64,000 nt of DNA, taken from the NCBI RefSeq assembly GCF_023476645.1, contig NZ_JAMCOJ010000003.1:186001-250000 (forward strand), in the 5' to 3' direction. This document shows positions 55,993 to 64,000 of the stretch, one piece after another; position 1 is the first letter of the stretch, and the number at the start of each line of letters is the position of its first letter. Origin of the DNA: Cellulophaga sp. 20_2_10. GTDB lineage: Bacteria; Bacteroidota; Bacteroidia; Flavobacteriales; Flavobacteriaceae. The notes under the pieces are model-generated. The model had not been told where the DNA came from, did not search any database, and saw only the letters and a program-made list of their open reading frames with translations. The translations under genes and the position numbers were made by a program.

Positions 55993-56016
55993 CCCTCTAT
56001 TTAATTCTATCATTTT

Positions 56017-56397
56017 ATGATTATCACAATAAAAGTATTTGCTGCCTTATACGGTATGTTAGCCGTTATATTTGGTGCTTTTGGTGCTCATGCACTAAAA
56101 AAGATATTCACAGACGACCAGCTCAAGAATTTTGAGACTGGCGTAAAGTATCAAATGTATCATGCTATTGTATTGTTAGTATTAGGTTTTAATTTCAATT
56201 TTACAACTACTCAAGAAATAGTAATGGGTTACGCTTTTATAATCGGGATTTTCTTATTCTCATTTAGTATATATGGCCTCTGTATATCATCAGCTAAAGG
56301 AAAAAAAATTAAATTTCTTGGGCCAATAACGCCCCTAGGAGGTTTAGGATTAGTCCTAGGTTGGGCGCTTTTGTTGCTTAACTTTCTTAAATTATAG
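56017..56397 (+). CDS. DUF423 family membrane protein
   Basis: A 126-residue protein with four hydrophobic helices. The segment FGAFGAHALKKIF (about 20-32) and the ending PLGGLGLVLGWALLLLNFLKL (in part) match the DUF423 family (YgdD-like). Function is unknown. Converges with the gene at 56407. Confidence 0.88.
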   Translation: MIITIKVFAALYGMLAVIFGAFGAHALKKIFTDDQLKNFETGVKYQMYHAIVLLVLGFNFNFTTTQEIVMGYAFIIGIFLFSFSIYGLCISSAKGKKIKFLGPITPLGGLGLVLGWALLLLNFLKL

Positions 56398-56406
56398 TCT
56401 TAAATT

Positions 56407-57924
56407 TTATTCTTCTGCAGTAAACTCTCTTATAGCTTGGTTAGGCTCTATAATGTTATATCCTTTCCAAAATTCAGGGTCGTACTTTTTTAAGTATTCT
56501 GGTTTAATAATCTTTTTTTGCTCAAAATTGTCGTACGTGCTTTTTGTTATGTTTTCGGCATCAAAAACAACAATTTCGTATTTAGTTACACTTGTAATTG
56601 CCATGTCTAACTTTACATAAAGCTCGTTTTGTTTATTTCTTCCTTTTACAACCTTGTTCTTTTCAATTATTTTTAAAGGTCTTCTTATACCTGCTTTACT
56701 TCCTGCTTCTCGTTCTAAATATTGTAGGTCGTAGGTGTTATTTTCATTTTTAGCAAAAATCATTTTACCTCTAGATAAGTGTTCTTGGTAAGAAATTCCG
56801 AATAGCTTAATACTTTTTAGTGTTTTTACATTGTCATAATCTATACGGATAACAGCAAAATCATCTGCGTTTACATATATGGTACCCTCATAATCTGCAC
56901 CTCTCTTAGGTTCAAAATTTAATATATACACAGGTATGTTTCCCCAGTACGTGTAGTCTTTTATAGTAAAGTTGTAACGTCCAGATTTTGTTATCACGTT
57001 TAGTTTAGCATCATCCATATAAAATAGATTATTAAACTGATTGCCTATAGTTGTTTTTTTATAATCGGCATAACTAGCTCTGCGTGCTTCTTCTAATTTT
57101 TTCTTTTCCTCTAGCTCTTTTTTTAATGCTATACTGTCTTTTTTTACGTCATTAGGGTTGTTTAATGCGCCATCAACTTTAACACCAACAAGACCCGATT
57201 TTATTTTAAAGTACGAATCTGGTTTTACATTGTTTTTAATAATCTCGTTAAATTTTTCTTCAAGCTTAGTAATATCTAACTCAGAGTTTTTATCGTATAA
57301 TCTACATGCTTTTATAGGATCTATTTTTAATGTTTCTTTATCGTAATTTCCGTAAATATCACATAAAACCTCAGAATAACTATTGTCTCTTTTTGGCAAA
57401 GCAGTTATAACGCTATCTAAAAAAGGCTTATTTAGTTCCTCTATAGTAGATTTCATAAATGTATAGTTTGTTTTATCTAATCCTTGGTAATTAGACTCTC
57501 TAAGGAATATTTTTTTCTTAGTTAGGTCTTTGCTATAGTTTTTGTCTAAACTATCTTTAACCATATCTATAATCTCTTCTCCGGTGTAATTTTTATTTGA
57601 AACCAAAACCTCATTAAGTTCTATGGTCTTTGGTTGCATGTAAATAATACTATCCTTAAAAGTGTGTATGGGTTGCGCTATTGATTCGTAGCCAATACAA
57701 GAAATAAAAATTGAATCTATTGCAGTTGTGTTTGTAGTGCTTAATGAAAATTTACCTTCACCATTTGTAATTACTCCTTTTTTATTAGAGAGTACAACCG
57801 AAACATACGGTATTGCTTCTTTATTAGCTGCATCTTTTATACTAGCATTAAGTTCTTGTGCTGTTGTGATATTGCTTGCAATTAAAGTGATGATTAAAAT
57901 TACAAGTTGAGTCGTTTTACGCAT
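56407..57924 (-). CDS. Secreted carboxypeptidase-like regulatory-domain protein
   Basis: A 505-residue exported protein (signal peptide of about 22, ending TTAQ). A CarboxypepD_reg-like beta-sandwich (about 24-105; IKDAANKEAIPYVSVVLSNKKGV shown in part) is followed by a large alpha/beta region of unknown fold with NFEPKRGADYEGTIYV near residue 344. Such proteins are common in Bacteroidota envelopes and usually have no enzymatic carboxypeptidase activity. Function unknown. No operon partner is near. Confidence 0.75.
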   Translation of the reverse strand: MRKTTQLVILIITLIASNITTAQELNASIKDAANKEAIPYVSVVLSNKKGVITNGEGKFSLSTTNTTAIDSIFISCIGYESIAQPIHTFKDSIIYMQPKTIELNEVLVSNKNYTGEEIIDMVKDSLDKNYSKDLTKKKIFLRESNYQGLDKTNYTFMKSTIEELNKPFLDSVITALPKRDNSYSEVLCDIYGNYDKETLKIDPIKACRLYDKNSELDITKLEEKFNEIIKNNVKPDSYFKIKSGLVGVKVDGALNNPNDVKKDSIALKKELEEKKKLEEARRASYADYKKTTIGNQFNNLFYMDDAKLNVITKSGRYNFTIKDYTYWGNIPVYILNFEPKRGADYEGTIYVNADDFAVIRIDYDNVKTLKSIKLFGISYQEHLSRGKMIFAKNENNTYDLQYLEREAGSKAGIRRPLKIIEKNKVVKGRNKQNELYVKLDMAITSVTKYEIVVFDAENITKSTYDNFEQKKIIKPEYLKKYDPEFWKGYNIIEPNQAIREFTAEE

Positions 57925-58060
57925 AATTAGTTTTTTGGTTTTTGTTTCTTATTAGTATAGACAACATAAACTTGGTTGTTGTTGCCTGCTGTTGCTAAAA
58001 AAAATGAAAATAAAACGTAAAACTTTGATTGCTAGATTTTTGAGTCGTTTTATTTTAGAG

Positions 58061-58092
58061 TTACTTTTTTAGCCGCTGGCTAAATAAAGTAA
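58061..58092. repeat. Stable hairpin without a U-tract
   Basis: TTACTTTTTTAGCC (58061-58074) pairs with GGCTAAATAAAGTAA (58078-58092) with one bulged base and a 3-nt loop. Neither strand ends in a T run, so it is not a typical terminator; it may be an RNA processing structure or an operator. Confidence 0.4.
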
Positions 58093-58201
58093 TCTAAGTA
58101 CTACAAGAGAGGGTTTTTGGATAACTTTAGTATAGTATTCTTATTTCTTTAACGAAATTGTGAATACTTTAAGATAATGTAGCAAGAATTATAAAGAAGA
58201 A

Positions 58202-58348
58202 TTAGCTGCAACCACAGTCGTCAGAGCCACATGATTTTTTATTCTTACTATTAGCAAAAAGAGATTTAGGAAGAAAAAATTTCTTAGCTACATAACCAAA
58301 TGCTACTGCAGCAGTAATAAATACTAGGATGTGTTGTAACGTTTCCAT
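58202..58348 (-). CDS. 48-residue membrane protein with a Cys-rich tail (FeoB-associated type)
   Basis: METLQHILVFITAAVAFGY begins a single membrane helix, then a basic linker (KKFFLPKSLFANSKNKK) and the tail SCGSDDCGCS. This is the shape of the small FeoB-associated Cys-rich membrane proteins. The length is too short for most ORF finders. No feoB is close by, so it is isolated here. Read on the minus strand, downstream of the acyl-CoA dehydrogenase gene but separated by a weak terminator. Confidence 0.7.
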   Translation of the reverse strand: METLQHILVFITAAVAFGYVAKKFFLPKSLFANSKNKKSCGSDDCGCS

Positions 58349-58367
58349 AACCTTAATAGTTTTTATA

Positions 58368-58393
58368 AAGGGTTGTTTTTGATTGCAACCCTT
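58368..58393 (-). terminator. Possible terminator of the acyl-CoA dehydrogenase gene
   Basis: AAGGGTTG (58368-58375) and CAACCCTT (58386-58393) form an 8-bp stem with a 10-nt loop, read on the minus strand after the 58426 stop. The following run is only TTTATAAAAA, so termination may be partial. Confidence 0.45.
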
Positions 58394-58425
58394 ATTTAGA
58401 CTATGTAAAGATAAAGAATTAATTA

Positions 58426-59604
58426 TTATTTAAAGGCATTAAGACCGGTAATGTCCATTCCTGTAATAAGTAAGTGTATATCATGCGTACCTTCATACGT
58501 AATAACACTTTCTAAGTTCATCATATGTCGCATAATACTGTACTCGCCAGTGATACCCATAGCACCTAAAACCTGTCTTGCTTCTCTGGCAATGTTTAAA
58601 GCCATATCTACATTGTTACGTTTGGCCATAGATATTTGTGCAGTTGTTGCTTTGCCTTCATTCTTAAGCTGTCCTAAGCGTAATGCTAGTAACTGTGCTT
58701 TTGTAATTTCGGTAATCATTTCTGCTAATTTCTTTTGTTGCAATTGGTATGCGCCAATTGGCTTACCAAATTGTATGCGTTCTTTTGCATAACGTAAGGC
58801 AGTATCATAACAATCCATTGCTGCGCCAATTGCACCCCAAGCAATACCGTAACGAGCCGAATCTAAACATCCTAATGGAGCGCCTAGTCCGTTTTTATTT
58901 GGTAATAGGTTTTCTTTAGGAATTTTTACATTATCAAAAATAAGTTCACCCGTTGCAGATGCTCTTAAAGACCATTTGTTGTGAGTTTCTGGAGTAGAAA
59001 AACCTTCCATTCCGCGCTCAACAATAAGTCCGTTAATTCTACCTTCTTCGTTCTTAGCCCAAACAACAGCTACATCGCAAAAAGGAGAATTAGAGATCCA
59101 TAGTTTAGCACCATTTAAAAGGTAATGGTCTCCCATATCTTTGTATTTGGTTTCCATACCGCCAGGGTTAGATCCGTGGTTTGGTTCTGTTAAACCAAAA
59201 CTACCCATAAACTCCCCGCTAGCTAATTTAGGTAAGTATTTTTTACGTTGTTCTTCTGTACCGTAGGTATAAATAGGGTACATAACCAAAGAAGATTGTA
59301 CAGATGCAGTAGAACGTACGCCACTATCACCACGTTCTATCTCTTGCATAATTAAACCATAACTTATTTGGTCTAAACCAGCACCACCGTATTCTTCAGG
59401 AATGTATGGGCCAAAAGCACCAATCTCTGCTAATCCACTAATTATTTGCTTAGGAAACTCAGCTTTTTGAGCGTATTCTTCAATTATTGGAGATACGTCT
59501 CTTTTTACCCATTGGCGGGCGGCATCTCTCACCAATTTATGTTCTTCGGACAATAAATCGTCTATATTGTAATAATCTGGTGCTTCAAATAAATCTGGTT
59601 TCAT
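58426..59604 (-). CDS. Acyl-CoA dehydrogenase, glutaryl-CoA dehydrogenase-like
   Basis: A 392-residue flavoprotein. The FAD-binding segments GSFGLTEPNHGSNPGGMET (about 134-152) and the catalytic glutamate in YEGTHDIHLLI (Glu about 371) are intact. VRSTASVQSSLVM near 97, a strongly diagnostic stretch, points to glutaryl-CoA dehydrogenase, which oxidises and decarboxylates glutaryl-CoA to crotonyl-CoA in lysine and tryptophan breakdown. A broader acyl-CoA substrate cannot be ruled out. It has its own TATCTTTG promoter. Confidence 0.88.
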   Translation of the reverse strand: MKPDLFEAPDYYNIDDLLSEEHKLVRDAARQWVKRDVSPIIEEYAQKAEFPKQIISGLAEIGAFGPYIPEEYGGAGLDQISYGLIMQEIERGDSGVRSTASVQSSLVMYPIYTYGTEEQRKKYLPKLASGEFMGSFGLTEPNHGSNPGGMETKYKDMGDHYLLNGAKLWISNSPFCDVAVVWAKNEEGRINGLIVERGMEGFSTPETHNKWSLRASATGELIFDNVKIPKENLLPNKNGLGAPLGCLDSARYGIAWGAIGAAMDCYDTALRYAKERIQFGKPIGAYQLQQKKLAEMITEITKAQLLALRLGQLKNEGKATTAQISMAKRNNVDMALNIAREARQVLGAMGITGEYSIMRHMMNLESVITYEGTHDIHLLITGMDITGLNAFK

Positions 59605-59627
59605 AGCTATGTATTAGGATATGTAAC

Positions 59628-59635
59628 CAAAGATA
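59628..59635 (-). promoter_or_regulatory. -7 box of the acyl-CoA dehydrogenase gene
   Basis: Read on minus: TATCTTTG, a perfect TAnnTTTG, 24 bp before the ATG at 59604. A -33 TTTG about 20 bp upstream (59656-59659) completes it. Confidence 0.6.
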
Positions 59636-59668
59636 GGCAAAGAAATATAACAATACAAAGAGTAAATG

Positions 59669-60406
59669 TTACATTTTTAAATAAAAATCTTTTGTTAGGT
59701 TGATGTATTCTTCCGTGTAGATATGTCTATCTTTCTCTATAACAAGCTCTTCAGTTTTTAAGTTTGATGAAGGCTCTTTTGTAAACTCCAACAGACTTCG
59801 TTTTATCGCTACGTCAGCGTTACCTTTAACTCTCGTAATTCGTTTTGGATATAGTTGAAAATTTTTGGCAAGTTTTATAAATTCTTCTTCTTCTTTAAAC
59901 GGAATTATAGTTGAAAATACGCCATCTTTAGATAGTAATTTTGATGCGCCACTAAGCAGCTCATTAAATGGTAAAGATGTGTTTTGGCGAGCATTATCTC
60001 TAGCTTCATTACCAGTAGTAACATCTTCCGTGTAAAAAGGAGGATTGGATACTATTAAATCATACAACTCATCTTGATCAGTTTCGTCTGTAGCATATTC
60101 ATCTACAAACTCATCAAAACCAGCGTGAAAACAAAACAAGCGATCTGCCCAGATAGATGATTCAAAATTTTCTGTGCATTGTTCGTAAGCAGCATCATCT
60201 AACTCAATAGCCTCTATATTATCTGCAATGCTACGTTGAGCTAGCATTAAAGAAATAATACCAGTACCACTACCAATATCTAAAATAGAGTAGGGGTTGT
60301 GGTCTATAGATGCCCATGCGCCCAATAAAACACCGTCTGTGCCTATTTTCATAGCGCAACGGTCTTGGGCAATAGTAAATTGTTTAAATGTAAAAGGTTT
60401 GCTCAT
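59669..60406 (-). CDS. tRNA1(Val) (adenine-37-N6)-methyltransferase-like enzyme
   Basis: A 245-residue Rossmann methyltransferase. The SAM-binding motif LDIGSGTGI is at 42-50 and the adenine-N6 catalytic motif IVSNPPFY at 118-125. It resembles TrmN6/YfiC, which methylates A37 of tRNA-Val, by the overall length and N-terminal FKQF pattern. Other small-molecule or RNA targets are possible. It is separated from the NAD genes by a strong terminator. Confidence 0.88.
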   Translation of the reverse strand: MSKPFTFKQFTIAQDRCAMKIGTDGVLLGAWASIDHNPYSILDIGSGTGIISLMLAQRSIADNIEAIELDDAAYEQCTENFESSIWADRLFCFHAGFDEFVDEYATDETDQDELYDLIVSNPPFYTEDVTTGNEARDNARQNTSLPFNELLSGASKLLSKDGVFSTIIPFKEEEEFIKLAKNFQLYPKRITRVKGNADVAIKRSLLEFTKEPSSNLKTEELVIEKDRHIYTEEYINLTKDFYLKM

Positions 60407-60424
60407 GATATAAGTTTAAAAAAG

Positions 60425-60457
60425 AAGAGGCAAGCTTGTAAAAAAAGCTTGCCTCTT
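60425..60457 (-). terminator. Terminator of the prs-nadV operon
   Basis: AAGAGGCAAGCTT (60425-60437) and AAGCTTGCCTCTT (60445-60457) form a perfect 13-bp stem with a 7-nt loop. On the minus strand a T-rich run follows. It closes the NAD salvage operon 22 bp after the nadV stop. Confidence 0.9.
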
Positions 60458-60478
60458 ACGTTTGCAAAATTAAGGAGT

Positions 60479-61927
60479 TTATCTTACTCTATTTCTAATA
60501 TTTTGTAAAGAATCATCTACAAGTAATTTACCATCTTTAAATACTACTTTTAGTTCTCCTGTTTTTTCTTCGTCCCAGGAAACACTATCTGTAAGTGTAA
60601 ATACGCCGTTTTTCTTTTCAACTTTAAGTAATCCTTTAGCAGATTTTTTAGTTCCATCGTCAGTAATAGGATCTTTAAAAATTTCTCTTCCTTCTCCGTT
60701 TACTTCTCCGTATGTTGCTTTCATTGCAAAACCAAAAGTATCTCTAGTGTTGTATTGGTAAGTAAAAGAGCCAATACCTAAAACTACGTTTGTAGATGCA
60801 AACCCTTTTTGTTTTAGGCGCTCGCAAATATCTGTAGCACGGTCTGTAGTAATGCTGTCTCCATAAATAGCACCAATATGACTGTCTAATTCTTTGTATC
60901 CTTTATCGTTTGTTTTTCCGCCAAAGATCTCCCAAAGCAGTTCTATAACACCTTTTTTCTCTTCTGCTGTTTTTCCATTAGGATTGCCACAAATAATATC
61001 TGCAGGATCTCCACTATCTGGTCTAATAACAACCTTACCATCTCTTGCTAAAACTTCTTCTTTTAGGTTGGGTAAGTACTCTGTAAGTACTTTCCATAAG
61101 TCCCAAGTGTCAGACACAATAGAAACAATGCCATTAGGGTATACTTCTGTAATTAGCCTTTTAAAAGTTTCTTCTTCGCCTGTGTTTGTGCCCATACACA
61201 TAACAGAGTGTTCTGTAGCTGCAACTGAACCACCAATAAGTTCTGTGTCAGAATTTGCATTGTAGTATTCTTCTAAAAAATCTATACATGGTATAGTGTC
61301 TGTGCCAGAGAAACTAAGTAAGTGAGCAGATGCACTCATTACTGCAGCTTCCATACCAGCGATGCCTCGCATAGAAAAATCGTGTCCTTGCCAGTCTACA
61401 AATTCTGGAGTAGAAGAAGTTTCGTCAGCATATTTGTCTAGAATTCCTCTGTACTGTTTTGCAATAGTTGCAGAAGTACAAGGCATCCAGATGGTTGTAC
61501 TTAATATAGTTTCAAAATAATTAGTTAGCCAAAAGAATTCTGGTAATGTGTTGTACATTGTCATCATAGGGACACGTATAGGAACAGATGAACCTTCTGG
61601 TAGTGCTTTAATTACCATTGGCAAATAACCAAGATCATGTAAAGCTTCTATATGTGCTATGCCAACAGCATTTTCTCCTAAATAATTATTTATTCTTCTG
61701 CTATATTTTTTAGCAATTTCTTCTTTGGGTTTACCAAAAAAGTTAGCGTTAAAATCTTCTATAATGTATTTTTTAATAAAATACTGAAGTCCAAAAAATA
61801 CGATTTCATCAATAGCTTCTATTCTACTTTTTCTTGGTGTCCAGTTAGAGTATACTAATGTTGTGCCTTCTGGATATTGTCTTCTGTGATCTACCTTGTA
61901 GCCGTCTGTATATAGTAATGGATTCAT
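60479..61927 (-). CDS. nadV: Nicotinamide phosphoribosyltransferase
   Basis: A 482-residue enzyme that joins nicotinamide to PRPP, giving nicotinamide mononucleotide for NAD salvage. The N-terminus MNPLLYTDGYKVDHRRQYPEG, shown in part, and YSNWTPRKSR match NAMPT/NadV rather than nicotinate phosphoribosyltransferase PncB, as does the total length near 490. The phosphate/ribose-binding RPDSGDPADI segment is at about 302. It follows the prs-like gene by 26 bp, and both lie under NrtR-type operators. Confidence 0.9.
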   Translation of the reverse strand: MNPLLYTDGYKVDHRRQYPEGTTLVYSNWTPRKSRIEAIDEIVFFGLQYFIKKYIIEDFNANFFGKPKEEIAKKYSRRINNYLGENAVGIAHIEALHDLGYLPMVIKALPEGSSVPIRVPMMTMYNTLPEFFWLTNYFETILSTTIWMPCTSATIAKQYRGILDKYADETSSTPEFVDWQGHDFSMRGIAGMEAAVMSASAHLLSFSGTDTIPCIDFLEEYYNANSDTELIGGSVAATEHSVMCMGTNTGEEETFKRLITEVYPNGIVSIVSDTWDLWKVLTEYLPNLKEEVLARDGKVVIRPDSGDPADIICGNPNGKTAEEKKGVIELLWEIFGGKTNDKGYKELDSHIGAIYGDSITTDRATDICERLKQKGFASTNVVLGIGSFTYQYNTRDTFGFAMKATYGEVNGEGREIFKDPITDDGTKKSAKGLLKVEKKNGVFTLTDSVSWDEEKTGELKVVFKDGKLLVDDSLQNIRNRVR

Positions 61928-61953
61928 AATATCTATATTTTGTAATTATTATC

Positions 61954-62796
61954 TTAGTCTAGTAAGTCTGCTATTTTTATTTGTGTAATCTTTGGTTGTT
62001 CTGTAATGGTGTTAAAAGAATCGGTTGTAAAAATGCCATCGTAATAGCTGCTTAGACTCTCCAAACCTTTACTAAAAATACCGTGGCTAACAGCAAGGTA
62101 TAAATTGCCGGCATTCTTGTTTCTTAATTCTTGTGCTAAGCCATTAAAAGTTCCGCCACCATCGCAGATATCATCTACAACCAAACAATCTTTACCTTGA
62201 AGGTCATCTGTATATACTTTAAACCCCGATAATTTACCAGTCTTTACGTCTCTAGACTTAGAACATTCTACAACCTCTTTACCTCCTAAATATTCAGATA
62301 CTTTGTATATTTTTTTAAGAGCACCTCCGTCTGGAGAAATTAAAACTATAGTGTTATTTAAGGTCGATAGTACTTTTTCTATAAACGTGTAATTTGTAAC
62401 GGTAGTACAGTTGTTTAATAGGGCAGGAGTAACCTCTGAGTGTGGGTCGTAAACAGTAACTTCATCTAATTGAAGGCTATTTATAAGATCTGCATATACT
62501 TTTACAGATAGTGATTCACCAGAGACCATTAATCTGTCTTGTCTAGCAGCCGGAAAATATGGGATAAAAACTTTTATAATCTTTACGCCCATACGTTTTA
62601 GTGCATCTACGGTTATTAGCAGTAAGCCTACATCGTTAAAAGATTGGAGTCTGTGTGTTACTGTTGTAGTTTCTTGGATATTAAAATTGTCTTCAATTTT
62701 AATATGTGGCTCTCCACCAGAAAATAAAAACGACTTATATTCGATGCTTTTCTGATTTGGAAACGGATTAAACTGTGGATCTAAATTTAGTATCAT
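61954..62796 (-). CDS. Ribose-phosphate pyrophosphokinase-like protein for NAD salvage
   Basis: A 280-residue PRPP synthetase-family protein, shorter than the usual ~310-315. The PRPP-binding loop reads VDDICDGGGTF (near 210), close to the canonical VDDIxDTxGT. It also carries PYFPAARQDR (near 80) and YDPHSEVTP (near 115). These features support a working enzyme that would supply PRPP directly to the nicotinamide phosphoribosyltransferase encoded next, as in NAD gene clusters of other bacteria and phages. Its ATG at 62796 overlaps the NrtR-type operator. It is the first gene of the prs-nadV operon. Confidence 0.86.
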   Translation of the reverse strand: MILNLDPQFNPFPNQKSIEYKSFLFSGGEPHIKIEDNFNIQETTTVTHRLQSFNDVGLLLITVDALKRMGVKIIKVFIPYFPAARQDRLMVSGESLSVKVYADLINSLQLDEVTVYDPHSEVTPALLNNCTTVTNYTFIEKVLSTLNNTIVLISPDGGALKKIYKVSEYLGGKEVVECSKSRDVKTGKLSGFKVYTDDLQGKDCLVVDDICDGGGTFNGLAQELRNKNAGNLYLAVSHGIFSKGLESLSSYYDGIFTTDSFNTITEQPKITQIKIADLLD

Positions 62797-62816
62797 TTGC
62801 GTTATTTTTACACAAA
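62796..62816. promoter_or_regulatory. NrtR-type operator over the prs-nadV promoter
   Basis: TTTGCGT-N7-ACACAAA, a 21-bp palindrome that overlaps the prs -7 box (62813-62820, minus strand) and the prs start codon. It is one of three copies in this locus (others at 62848 and 63555). The position suits repression by occlusion. Confidence 0.6.
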
Positions 62817-62842
62817 GTTAAATAAGTAAATGGATTAGCAAA
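62813..62842 (-). promoter_or_regulatory. Promoter of the prs-nadV operon
   Basis: Read on the minus strand: -33 TTTG (62842-62839), 18-bp spacer and -7 TAACTTTG (62820-62813), 17 bp before the ATG at 62796. Confidence 0.65.
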
Positions 62843-62847
62843 AACAT

Positions 62848-62868
62848 TTTGTGTTAAAGTTACGCAAA
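62848..62868. promoter_or_regulatory. Second NrtR-type operator
   Basis: TTTGTGT-N7-ACGCAAA, which overlaps the last codons and stop of nrtR and lies just upstream of the prs promoter. Its centre is 52 bp (about five turns) from the operator at 62796, which could allow joint binding or looping. Confidence 0.6.
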
Positions 62869-63552
62869 CTTAATTTCAAAATGCATCCCTTTCTTCTCTA
62901 AGGCTTTGTATTTGTTAGTGTCAAAGGTGAATAATTGTGCGGGTCTACCACTTCCTGCTTTTTGTTTTTCATCGGATTTTTTAATAAAATCGAAACTTAA
63001 TATCTTTTTTCTAAAGTTTCTTCGATCAATTTCTTGTTCCAAAATGGTAGCATATAAATGCTCTAAATCTGAAAACGGAAACTTTTTTGGAAGCAAATCA
63101 AAGCCAATTGGTTGGTAGTGTAGTTTAGCTTTTAATCTCTTAAAAGCAGTGTTTATAATTAAATTATGATCGAACGGTAAAGCTGGTGTATTGTTTATGT
63201 TTTGCCATTTTACATCTTGCGCATCTGTGGCTGCACTTAATTTAAATTTCTCTGGATTAACTAGGGCAAAATAGGATACAGATATTACCTGGTTTCTTTG
63301 GTCACGATTAATATCGTCTCCAAACGTATATAGTTGTTCTAGGTAGTTTACAGTAATACCTGCCTCTTCTTGTAGTTCTCTGTGTACTGCCGTGGTTAGT
63401 GTTTCACCATTTTGTACTAAGCCTCCTGGTAAAACCCATTGGTCTTTGTAATGGCCATATTTTTGTTGTACTAATAAAATATAAAGTGCGTTATCTTGAT
63501 AGCCAAAAACAACAGCATCTACAGCTATTTTTATGTTCTGATTGTTCTGCAT
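62860..63552 (-). CDS. nrtR: NrtR-type Nudix transcriptional regulator of NAD metabolism
   Basis: A 230-residue two-domain protein. The N-terminal Nudix domain has an intact Nudix box (about 44-66: G-x5-E-x7-RELQEEAGI) so it may bind or hydrolyse ADP-ribose derivatives. The C-terminal winged-helix domain (about 145-230) has FRKKILSFDF and GRPAQLFTFD, matching the NrtR DNA-binding fold. NrtR proteins repress NAD-synthesis genes and release DNA when ADP-ribose or related nucleotides rise. It is upstream of the prs-nadV operon on the same strand and has the same palindrome at its own start, so it is likely autoregulated and represses the operon. Confidence 0.85.
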   Translation of the reverse strand: MQNNQNIKIAVDAVVFGYQDNALYILLVQQKYGHYKDQWVLPGGLVQNGETLTTAVHRELQEEAGITVNYLEQLYTFGDDINRDQRNQVISVSYFALVNPEKFKLSAATDAQDVKWQNINNTPALPFDHNLIINTAFKRLKAKLHYQPIGFDLLPKKFPFSDLEHLYATILEQEIDRRNFRKKILSFDFIKKSDEKQKAGSGRPAQLFTFDTNKYKALEKKGMHFEIKFA

Positions 63553-63554
63553 AA

Positions 63555-63575
63555 TATGTGTAGTATATACGCAAA
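63555..63575. promoter_or_regulatory. Third NrtR-type operator, upstream of nrtR
   Basis: TATGTGT-N7-ACGCAAA, one mismatch from the consensus TTTGYGT-N7-ACRCAAA. It lies 3 bp before the nrtR ATG and overlaps the -7 box TATTTTTG (minus strand, 63579-63572). Confidence 0.55.
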
Positions 63576-63579
63576 AATA
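63572..63579 (-). promoter_or_regulatory. -7 box of nrtR
   Basis: Read on minus this is TATTTTTG, a perfect TAnnTTTG, 20 bp before the nrtR ATG at 63552. It overlaps the operator at 63555-63575. Confidence 0.6.
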
Positions 63580-63636
63580 CAGGTTTTATTATCTGAGAAA
63601 AAAATAAAGAATACTTTGTTTAAAAATAGGTTGACT

Positions 63637-63966
63637 TTAATGTGCAGTGCTATTTGAAAAGAAGTTCATTATAATAACACCAGCTACAATTAAGCTTATC
63701 CCTAAAATAGCAGGAAAATCTAAAGTTTGTTTAAAAATTACAACCGAAATTATTGCTGTAATAACAATACCTAGGCCTCCCCAAATTGCATATGCAACTC
63801 CTAGCGGAATATATTTTAATGCCTGTGAAAAAAAGAAAAAAGAAATAACATACGATACTATTGTTACAATAGTCGGTATTGTTTTTGTAAACCCGTTTGA
63901 GGTTTGCATAAAGCTAGATCCAACAATTTCAAAAACAATTGCTAGTGCTAAAAATAAATATTTCAT
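63637..63966 (-). CDS. Small multidrug resistance (SMR) family efflux protein
   Basis: A 109-residue four-helix membrane protein. The functional membrane glutamate is E13 (FEIVGSSFM), and the helix-3 signature IPLGVAYAIWGGLGIV (about 53-68) is present. SMR proteins work as antiparallel dimers that exchange protons for cationic drugs, guanidinium or polyamines. Sequence does not separate the drug (EmrE), guanidinium (Gdx/SugE) and spermidine (MdtIJ) branches firmly; YAIWGGLG occurs in several. Monocistronic, on the edge of the window. Confidence 0.92.
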   Translation of the reverse strand: MKYLFLALAIVFEIVGSSFMQTSNGFTKTIPTIVTIVSYVISFFFFSQALKYIPLGVAYAIWGGLGIVITAIISVVIFKQTLDFPAILGISLIVAGVIIMNFFSNSTAH

Positions 63967-64000
63967 TATTTAACCTAGGTATAAGTCTACTAAGCCTGTT

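Follow-up and report, generated by a model that had tools for sequence, protein, structure and literature searches.

In silico evidence for a probable ADP-ribose recycling operon under an NrtR-type repressor in Cellulophaga sp. 20_2_10 and other Bacteroidota

Background

Which pathway does the NrtR-type regulator of Cellulophaga sp. 20_2_10 control, and through which DNA sites? The question is raised by a stretch of 64,000 nucleotides (contig NZ_JAMCOJ010000003.1, positions 186,001 to 250,000 of the forward strand; hereafter the window), in which nrtR is followed by two genes annotated prs and nadV. A preliminary description of this DNA had noticed three copies of a 21-bp palindrome there and read the whole as an NAD salvage operon under an autoregulated NrtR. 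Based on the membership of the regulator in the NrtR family, an operator pair of fixed spacing, the signatures of both enzymes and a class-wide linkage of NrtR, operator and NARP1, we propose instead that the two genes form an ADP-ribose recycling operon (NARP1) repressed by NrtR, with ADP-ribose acting as both inducer and first substrate. This reading is, in our estimate, correct with a probability of roughly 0.78.

NrtR regulons and bacterial NARP1 have been published separately, and a search limited to open-licence literature found no paper joining both; the linkage of nrtR with genes named prs and nadV in some Bacteroidota may already be in print. PRPP (phosphoribosyl pyrophosphate) biogenesis is reportedly among the NrtR targets that Rodionov described in 2008. 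The text of PMC12774641 does not mention NrtR or Nudix, nor any word in Bacteroid- or Flavobacter-.

Three palindromes at the nrtR locus

The three palindromes all exist as described. Two of them, at 62796..62816 and 62848..62868, match the pattern TTTGYGT-N7-ACRCAAA perfectly while the third, at 63555..63575, has one mismatch. All lie on the minus strand, as do the genes, and the order on that strand is nrtR (62860..63552, 230 aa), the predicted distal operator (62848..62868), the predicted adps-proximal operator (62796..62816), adps (the gene annotated prs; 61954..62796, 280 aa) and namat (annotated nadV; 60479..61927, 482 aa). The distal operator precedes the proximal one by 52 bp and begins inside nrtR, where its half-site TTTGCGTAA encodes the C-terminal Phe-Ala of NrtR and supplies the stop codon (TTT GCG TAA). 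The proximal operator begins within a TAnnTTTG box, TAACTTTG (62813..62820, minus strand), and ends on the first base, an A, of the start codon of adps. A second such box, TATTTTTG (63572..63579, minus strand), belongs to nrtR and overlaps the predicted operator at the nrtR promoter (63555..63575), which is the less conserved site. We take TAnnTTTG to be the Bacteroidota -7 type box, and two of the sites do overlap such boxes, as had been claimed.

With up to two mismatches, the window contains 8 matches to the pattern, against 1.68 +/- 1.11 expected, and none of 100 shuffles reaches 8. The whole genome (4.17 Mb) has no perfect match other than the two in front of adps. Six further sites with one mismatch (L003-L005 and L007-L009) are regarded for now as chance matches and not as additional regulon members: two fall within sufB-type and hydroxyacid dehydrogenase genes, others lie past a prolyl-tRNA synthetase gene and between convergent genes near ribosomal protein L21, and another is found ca. 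220 bp ahead of an Ig/cadherin-repeat gene. The best placed of the six (L009:1501-1521) is located between divergent nqrA and type 9 secretion plug genes.

A pair of operators at nearly constant spacing

NrtR loci were picked by similarity to the window NrtR and are not a random sample. They amount to 63, namely the window, 23 loci (L012-L034) and 39 of the loci L093-L132, with L131, which holds no NrtR, left uncounted. L012-L014 are closely related to the window, L020 and L095 seem to derive from a single contig, and L033 is cut 2 bases ahead of its nrtR match. In 37 of the 63 (62 relatives and the window) adps adjoins nrtR, and 35 of these 37 display both sites, at up to two mismatches each, with a spacing of 50-55 bp: 52 in 21 loci, 53 in five, 51 in four, 54 in three, and 50 and 55 in one each. 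This corresponds to about five helical turns, and two dimers would sit on one face of the DNA. The pair is kept when it lies farther from the end of nrtR (L033 and L102, spacing 50 and 52, respectively), and a spacing of 54 is found in the divergent loci L110 and L113 as well as in L034, in which Namat faces the pair. Of the 35 loci with the pair, 31 have a TAnnTTTG box directly next to the adps-proximal site. In a profile of 10 loci, which remained from 18 chosen loci of spacing 52 after removal of those at least 80% alike, the operator arms reach 1.77 and 1.79 bits per base versus 0.67 in the spacer, with 0.40 downstream and 0.95 upstream, the upstream part being nrtR coding sequence.

The overlap of the distal site with nrtR can be followed in codon usage. 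Among the 29 nrtR genes whose product ends in Phe-Ala, the terminal Ala codon is GCG in 26, while elsewhere in these genes GCG accounts for 51 of 413 Ala codons. The three non-GCG ends (L022, and L020 with its probable duplicate L095) belong to loci with neither adps nor the pair. That the operator, and not the protein, keeps GCG at this position is the likeliest explanation of these sequences.

When 395 genomes of the class were scanned for two perfect sites separated by a gap of 28-34 bp, 10 were positive, the window's own genome included, versus none of the 395 with a reversed control. Eight of the 10 pairs are situated between nrtR and adps, the other two being those of G380 and G024 (see below). 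Scanning relatives, as the preliminary description had suggested, thereby ties the operators to a neighbouring NAD operon in Flavobacteriaceae, Sphingobacteriaceae, Leadbetterellaceae and Saprospiraceae. The autoregulation read from the third palindrome fares less well: a site (up to two mismatches) occurs 20-50 bp before the nrtR start in 26 of the 63 loci overall and in 20 of those 35 that have the pair, compared with the nearly constant pair at adps, and autoregulation by NrtR looks optional. That description had not noted the fixed spacing of the pair, the fact that it overlaps the stop codon of nrtR, or the intact Nudix box of the regulator (see below).

In five Flavobacterium loci (L017, L021, L025, L026 and L030), nrtR has no operator upstream; these loci share an AT-rich stretch, resembling an inverted repeat when inspected by eye, that ends in CTCATTCGTTATATTTG.

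The enzymes of the operon

The label first given to the two enzymes, PRPP synthetase and a nicotinamide phosphoribosyltransferase forming nicotinamide mononucleotide (NMN), is not supported, as sequence tests identify them as a putative ADP-ribose pyrophosphate synthetase (Adps) and a putative nicotinamide ADP-ribose transferase (Namat). The adps product scores 271.7 bits with the phage family phrog_619 versus 141 bits with TIGR01251 and carries the motifs DGGGT and PHSE, compared with DTGGT and LHAEQIQGFF in E. coli Prs. The best PDB matches of the namat product are 9W5X and 9W5W, with 622 bits versus ca. 245 for human NAMPT; both are structures of the SPbetaL1 Namat (PMC12774641). The Namat signature given in that paper associates a clamp helix, GSX-phi-X-phi-X-phi-TRD with aromatic X, with a stacking residue in the clamp loop, and the window protein has GSFTYQYNTRD together with Arg at SPbetaL1 position 40 in this loop. 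Nineteen of the 20 NAD+-contacting residues listed for SPbetaL1 Namat (PMC12774641) are identical in the window, Arg40 being kept and Ala362 replaced by Ser.

The clamp-helix signature was found in all 24 bacterial Namat-type proteins longer than 400 aa and in none of the five Nampt-type ones; this comparison drops L017 (cut, 244 aa) and L123 (a fragment) and includes L031, cut at 417 aa. Trees separate Namat from Nampt (100/100) and Adps from Prs (100/99), the latter split setting 38 bacterial and 6 phage sequences against 12 Prs and 2 Prs-like ones, and SPbetaL1 falls on the window side in both; several branches are long and the order within groups is not interpreted. The Namat signature and the Adps grouping therefore designate the operon, by sequence, as NARP1, whose first enzyme would convert ADP-ribose and ATP into ADP-ribose pyrophosphate (ADPR-PP) and whose second would convert ADPR-PP and nicotinamide into NAD+.

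Linkage across genomes and the Nampt route

In the 395 genomes, classes were assigned by identity, the signature being read only in fetched loci. Namat-type proteins (at least 63% identity) occur in 18 genomes, and in all 18 the contig concerned also holds an NrtR no more than 16 kb away. Proteins at 38-40% identity, classed as Nampt-type, occur in seven; NrtR is close by in five of these (G230, G307, G173, G114 and G158) and not in G078 and G380, and the five of the seven that were examined are all Nampt-type by sequence. NadM is present in four of five Nampt-type loci, versus no NadM adenylyltransferase domain in any of 25 Namat-type loci, the window being one of these. Both marks of classical Nampt/NadV salvage are missing from the window, the Namat having no Nampt-type clamp helix (GGALLQK..RD) and positions 56001-64000 giving no match to NadM as an NMN adenylyltransferase partner. 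A search for a full NadR retrieved its kinase part alone (105 bits, below cut-off), a result that favours no particular route of NMN use. Overall, one regulator and its operator seem to serve two alternative routes, either Nampt with NadM or Adps with Namat.

On contig 17 of G380 (locus L131), two perfect operators 50 bp apart precede NadM-Nudix, Nampt-type and Tpt1 genes. The NrtR matches of this genome are located on another contig, with none within the L131 stretch, and L131 is likely a trans target of NrtR. The same operon as in the window, with an NrtR 65% identical, also occurs in L016, a metagenome-assembled genome labelled Saccharospirillaceae (Pseudomonadota) that was kept in the counts; this reflects either transfer or mis-binning.

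The regulator

The nrtR product combines a Nudix-like domain (NUDIX, PF00293, 3.2e-18) with an NrtR winged helix (NrtR_WHD, PF21906, 1.2e-24), as had been recognized from the start; it scores 137 bits with NF050029, under the 400-bit cut-off of that model, and is 95% identical to a C. fucicola protein. These two domains and a palindromic operator of ca. 21 bp at NAD-metabolism genes are those expected of the NrtR family. An impaired Nudix catalytic box, usual in the family but not strictly defining, is not found here: the box of the window protein, GLVQNGETLTTAVHRELQEEAGI, is intact, and REUxEE is likewise intact in all 50 relatives with at least 48% identity (window excluded), 36 of which have the full signature, versus a degenerate box in 11 of 12 more distant NrtRs. 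The box is impaired in published NrtRs and AraRs (PMC4666351; MsNrtR, PMC6800001), and since it is intact here, unlike in studied members, we claim no more than an NrtR-type repressor that belongs to a distinct subgroup. Among the same 50 relatives, the DNA contacts of AraR are kept at R180 in 48 and at N181, K184 and R205 in all, the position of K179 being always Arg and that of K204 always Gly.

The genome encodes a second NrtR_WHD protein (L045:5353-6084), which has a weak Nudix match, lies beside sugar ABC-transporter genes and is probably a pentose-type regulator. In addition, the phage family phrog_1198 matches residues 18-210 of the window NrtR, covering both domains, at 1.3e-26; some phages may thus carry NrtR-like regulators.

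Genes accompanying the operon in relatives

The window operon, with adps and namat only, is the minimal form. With the window left out of the count, at least 24 of the 37 adps loci have a gene for NADAR, macro, Tpt1, ARH or PARG on the adps strand, as detected by tblastn with representatives identified by Pfam. The counts are 18 for NADAR, 14 for macro, 12 for Tpt1, 11 for ARH-type and 6 for PARG, all of them lower bounds as many fetched stretches end ahead of Namat or of further operon genes. NADAR, macro, ARH and PARG enzymes free ADP-ribose, and Tpt1 forms ADP-ribose phosphates (PMC9503650, PMC11833690, and established knowledge). PADLOC returned only weak or uninformative names.

Two other genes, encoding a 289-aa protein and an adenylosuccinate-synthetase-like paralog (L015:6596-7465 and L015:7620-8690), occur together in 6 of the 37 adps loci; the 289-aa protein has no Pfam match at 1e-3. 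In L106 (genome G294), NrtR is accompanied by a 54-bp pair, with one mismatch in each site, ahead of genes for SIR2, macro, ARH, Tpt1, the adenylosuccinate-synthetase-like paralog and the 289-aa protein, with no Adps or Namat within the fetched stretch.

Proposed circuit

In the circuit that we infer, which spans NrtR binding, promoter block, effector, enzyme activity and use after NAD+ loss, NrtR dimers would occupy both operators on the same DNA face, ca. five turns apart, and bound NrtR would cover the -7 box and the start codon of adps, thereby shutting the promoter. Cleavage of NAD+ by NADase defences or ADP-ribosyltransferases, or removal of ADP-ribose from proteins or nucleic acids, would raise free ADP-ribose, which would bind the Nudix domain and release NrtR. 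Adps would then turn ADP-ribose and ATP into ADPR-PP, from which Namat would regenerate NAD+ with nicotinamide, and the resulting fall in ADP-ribose would restore repression. Because ADP-ribose would both bind NrtR and feed Adps, the inducer would be the first substrate.

More tentatively, the loci could represent a Bacteroidota regulon for recovery from NAD+ loss. NrtR with its intact Nudix box would both sense and slowly destroy ADP-ribose and so reset itself; the fuller operons would strip ADP-ribose from proteins, DNA and RNA (NADAR, macro, ARH and PARG, with Tpt1) and rebuild NAD+ in two steps; the operator pair would have served Nampt with NadM or Adps with Namat interchangeably; and the anti-defence NARP1 genes of phages would be relatives of a host pathway of self-rescue.

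NARP1 has been studied mainly in phages and appears here as a regulated bacterial operon, for which controlled recycling of ADP-ribose, with the inducer as its own substrate, would be a role. It is also suggested that, where Bacteroidota genes next to nrtR are annotated prs and nadV, or nicotinate phosphoribosyltransferase, the annotation is often wrong. The operator provides a means of searching for the remaining members of the regulon, and the locus lends itself to a simple test of cellular recovery from immunity or toxins that cleave NAD+.

Alternative explanations

Several observations weigh against ADP-ribose recycling under NrtR and are given here with the alternatives. The alternative that survives best, which we hold to be unlikely yet still deserving attention, keeps the circuit and replaces free ADP-ribose with another effector, either NAD+, ADPR-PP or ADP-ribose phosphate. 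Four ADP-ribose contacts of SoNrtR can be aligned (Arg41, Asn43, Lys76 and Arg98; Tyr10 and Phe15 are not alignable to the window NrtR), only Arg98 is kept in the window and the position of Lys76 is Glu in all 50 relatives; with most contacts lost, another effector or another binding mode is therefore possible. In addition, NdnR of C. glutamicum responds to NAD (PMC4666351). On the other hand, most NrtRs named in the passages of PMC4666351 and PMC6800001 used here respond to ADP-ribose, and the operon companions in relatives include families that release it.

Classical NMN salvage, in which Prs would supply PRPP, NadV would convert nicotinamide into NMN and NrtR would repress both, is improbable. 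The library names of the two products, ribose-phosphate diphosphokinase for adps and nicotinate phosphoribosyltransferase for namat, agree with it, phage Namat also forms NMN from PRPP in vitro (PMC12774641), and Nampt-type enzymes do occur at some NrtR loci (L109, L111, L112 and L128). The window enzymes, however, have Adps and Namat residues and group with SPbetaL1, a separate housekeeping Prs is encoded elsewhere in the genome (351 bits), and NadM, which could finish the route from NMN, is distributed with Nampt and not with Namat. The reading of the genes as Prs and NadV was rejected on the clamp-helix residues, the trees and this distribution.

That the palindromes belong to another factor, or to an RNA structure or terminator, with NrtR being incidental, we hold to be very improbable. 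Such an explanation would fit the genome-wide count at up to one mismatch, where 9 sites versus 8 for the pattern read backwards reveal no enrichment; the bare motif is therefore weak evidence, and pairing and conservation carry the case. It would also fit genome G024, in which a perfect pair has no NAD gene beside it: the NrtR there is divergent from a TonB-receptor-like gene, which speaks against a purely NAD regulon, and no NadV-family match was found genome-wide at E up to 1e-40. Two of the 37 adps loci, L124 and L126, have no pair at up to two mismatches; their NrtRs are 44% identical and have a degenerate Nudix box. Conversely, the pair occurs in 7 of 26 loci without adjacent adps (L034, L106, L108, L111, L112, L114 and L123), in the first of which Namat adjoins the pair and adps comes next. 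Against an unrelated factor, the sites follow NrtR and adps with their spacing kept through gene rearrangement, they are missing along with adps in L020 and L022, and they match the recognition residues of NrtR.

Finally, an AraR/XylR-type pentose regulator lying beside NAD genes is scarcely credible and was rejected: AraR is the best PDB match and shares the operator core, but the arabinose contacts Arg34, Arg86 and His131 of AraR are Gln, Arg and His in the window protein, in which AraR Gly89 is also Arg, the identified neighbours are NAD and ADP-ribose genes, and the paralog beside sugar-transport genes, with its weak Nudix match, is a separate gene.

Comparison with known systems

With the NrtRs of Shewanella, Synechocystis, Mycobacterium and Streptococcus, the window system shares a Nudix-like domain joined to a winged helix, a palindromic operator and targets among NAD genes (PMC4666351, PMC6800001). 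ADP-ribose relieves the DNA binding of several NrtRs (PMC4666351, PMC6800001) and is the candidate effector in the window. The window system differs from studied members by its NARP1 targets, accompanied by ADP-ribose hydrolases in relatives, by its intact Nudix box and by operators paired ca. 52 bp apart; its motif also differs from the Mycobacterium and Streptococcus NrtR motifs quoted in PMC6800001.

The Bacteroides regulator BtAraR (5DDG) has in common with the window NrtR the core GTGT-N7-ACAC and the residues R180, N181, K184 and R205. The operator in 5DDG is GTGT-TACTTTT-ACAC (PMC4666351, Table 2), and AraR sites likewise occur in tandem, with 3 or 42 nt between them, ahead of the target operon (PMC4666351). 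The preliminary description did not recall the motif as known in flavobacteria; this holds for the flanking TTTG/CAAA and, at NARP1, for the spacing of 52 bp, which are new, and not for the core, known from the AraR-DNA complex (PMC4666351, Table 2). Unlike the window NrtR, BtAraR has arabinose-gene targets, Arg34 and Gly89 in place of Gln and Arg, and an impaired Nudix box.

As for the enzymes, the Adps and Namat of Paenibacillus foliorum (pfNARP1) were shown in 2026 to be active in vitro and in vivo, their physiological role being left open (PMC12774641). NARP1 of phages (SPbetaL1 and Bas63, with NrsAB of ICP1) shares with the window operon the same clamp and catalytic residues and, in SPbetaL1, the order Adps then Namat (PMC12774641, PMC11559045). 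Unlike these phage systems, the window operon is chromosomal, lies with an NrtR-type repressor and is joined in relatives by ADP-ribose-processing enzymes.

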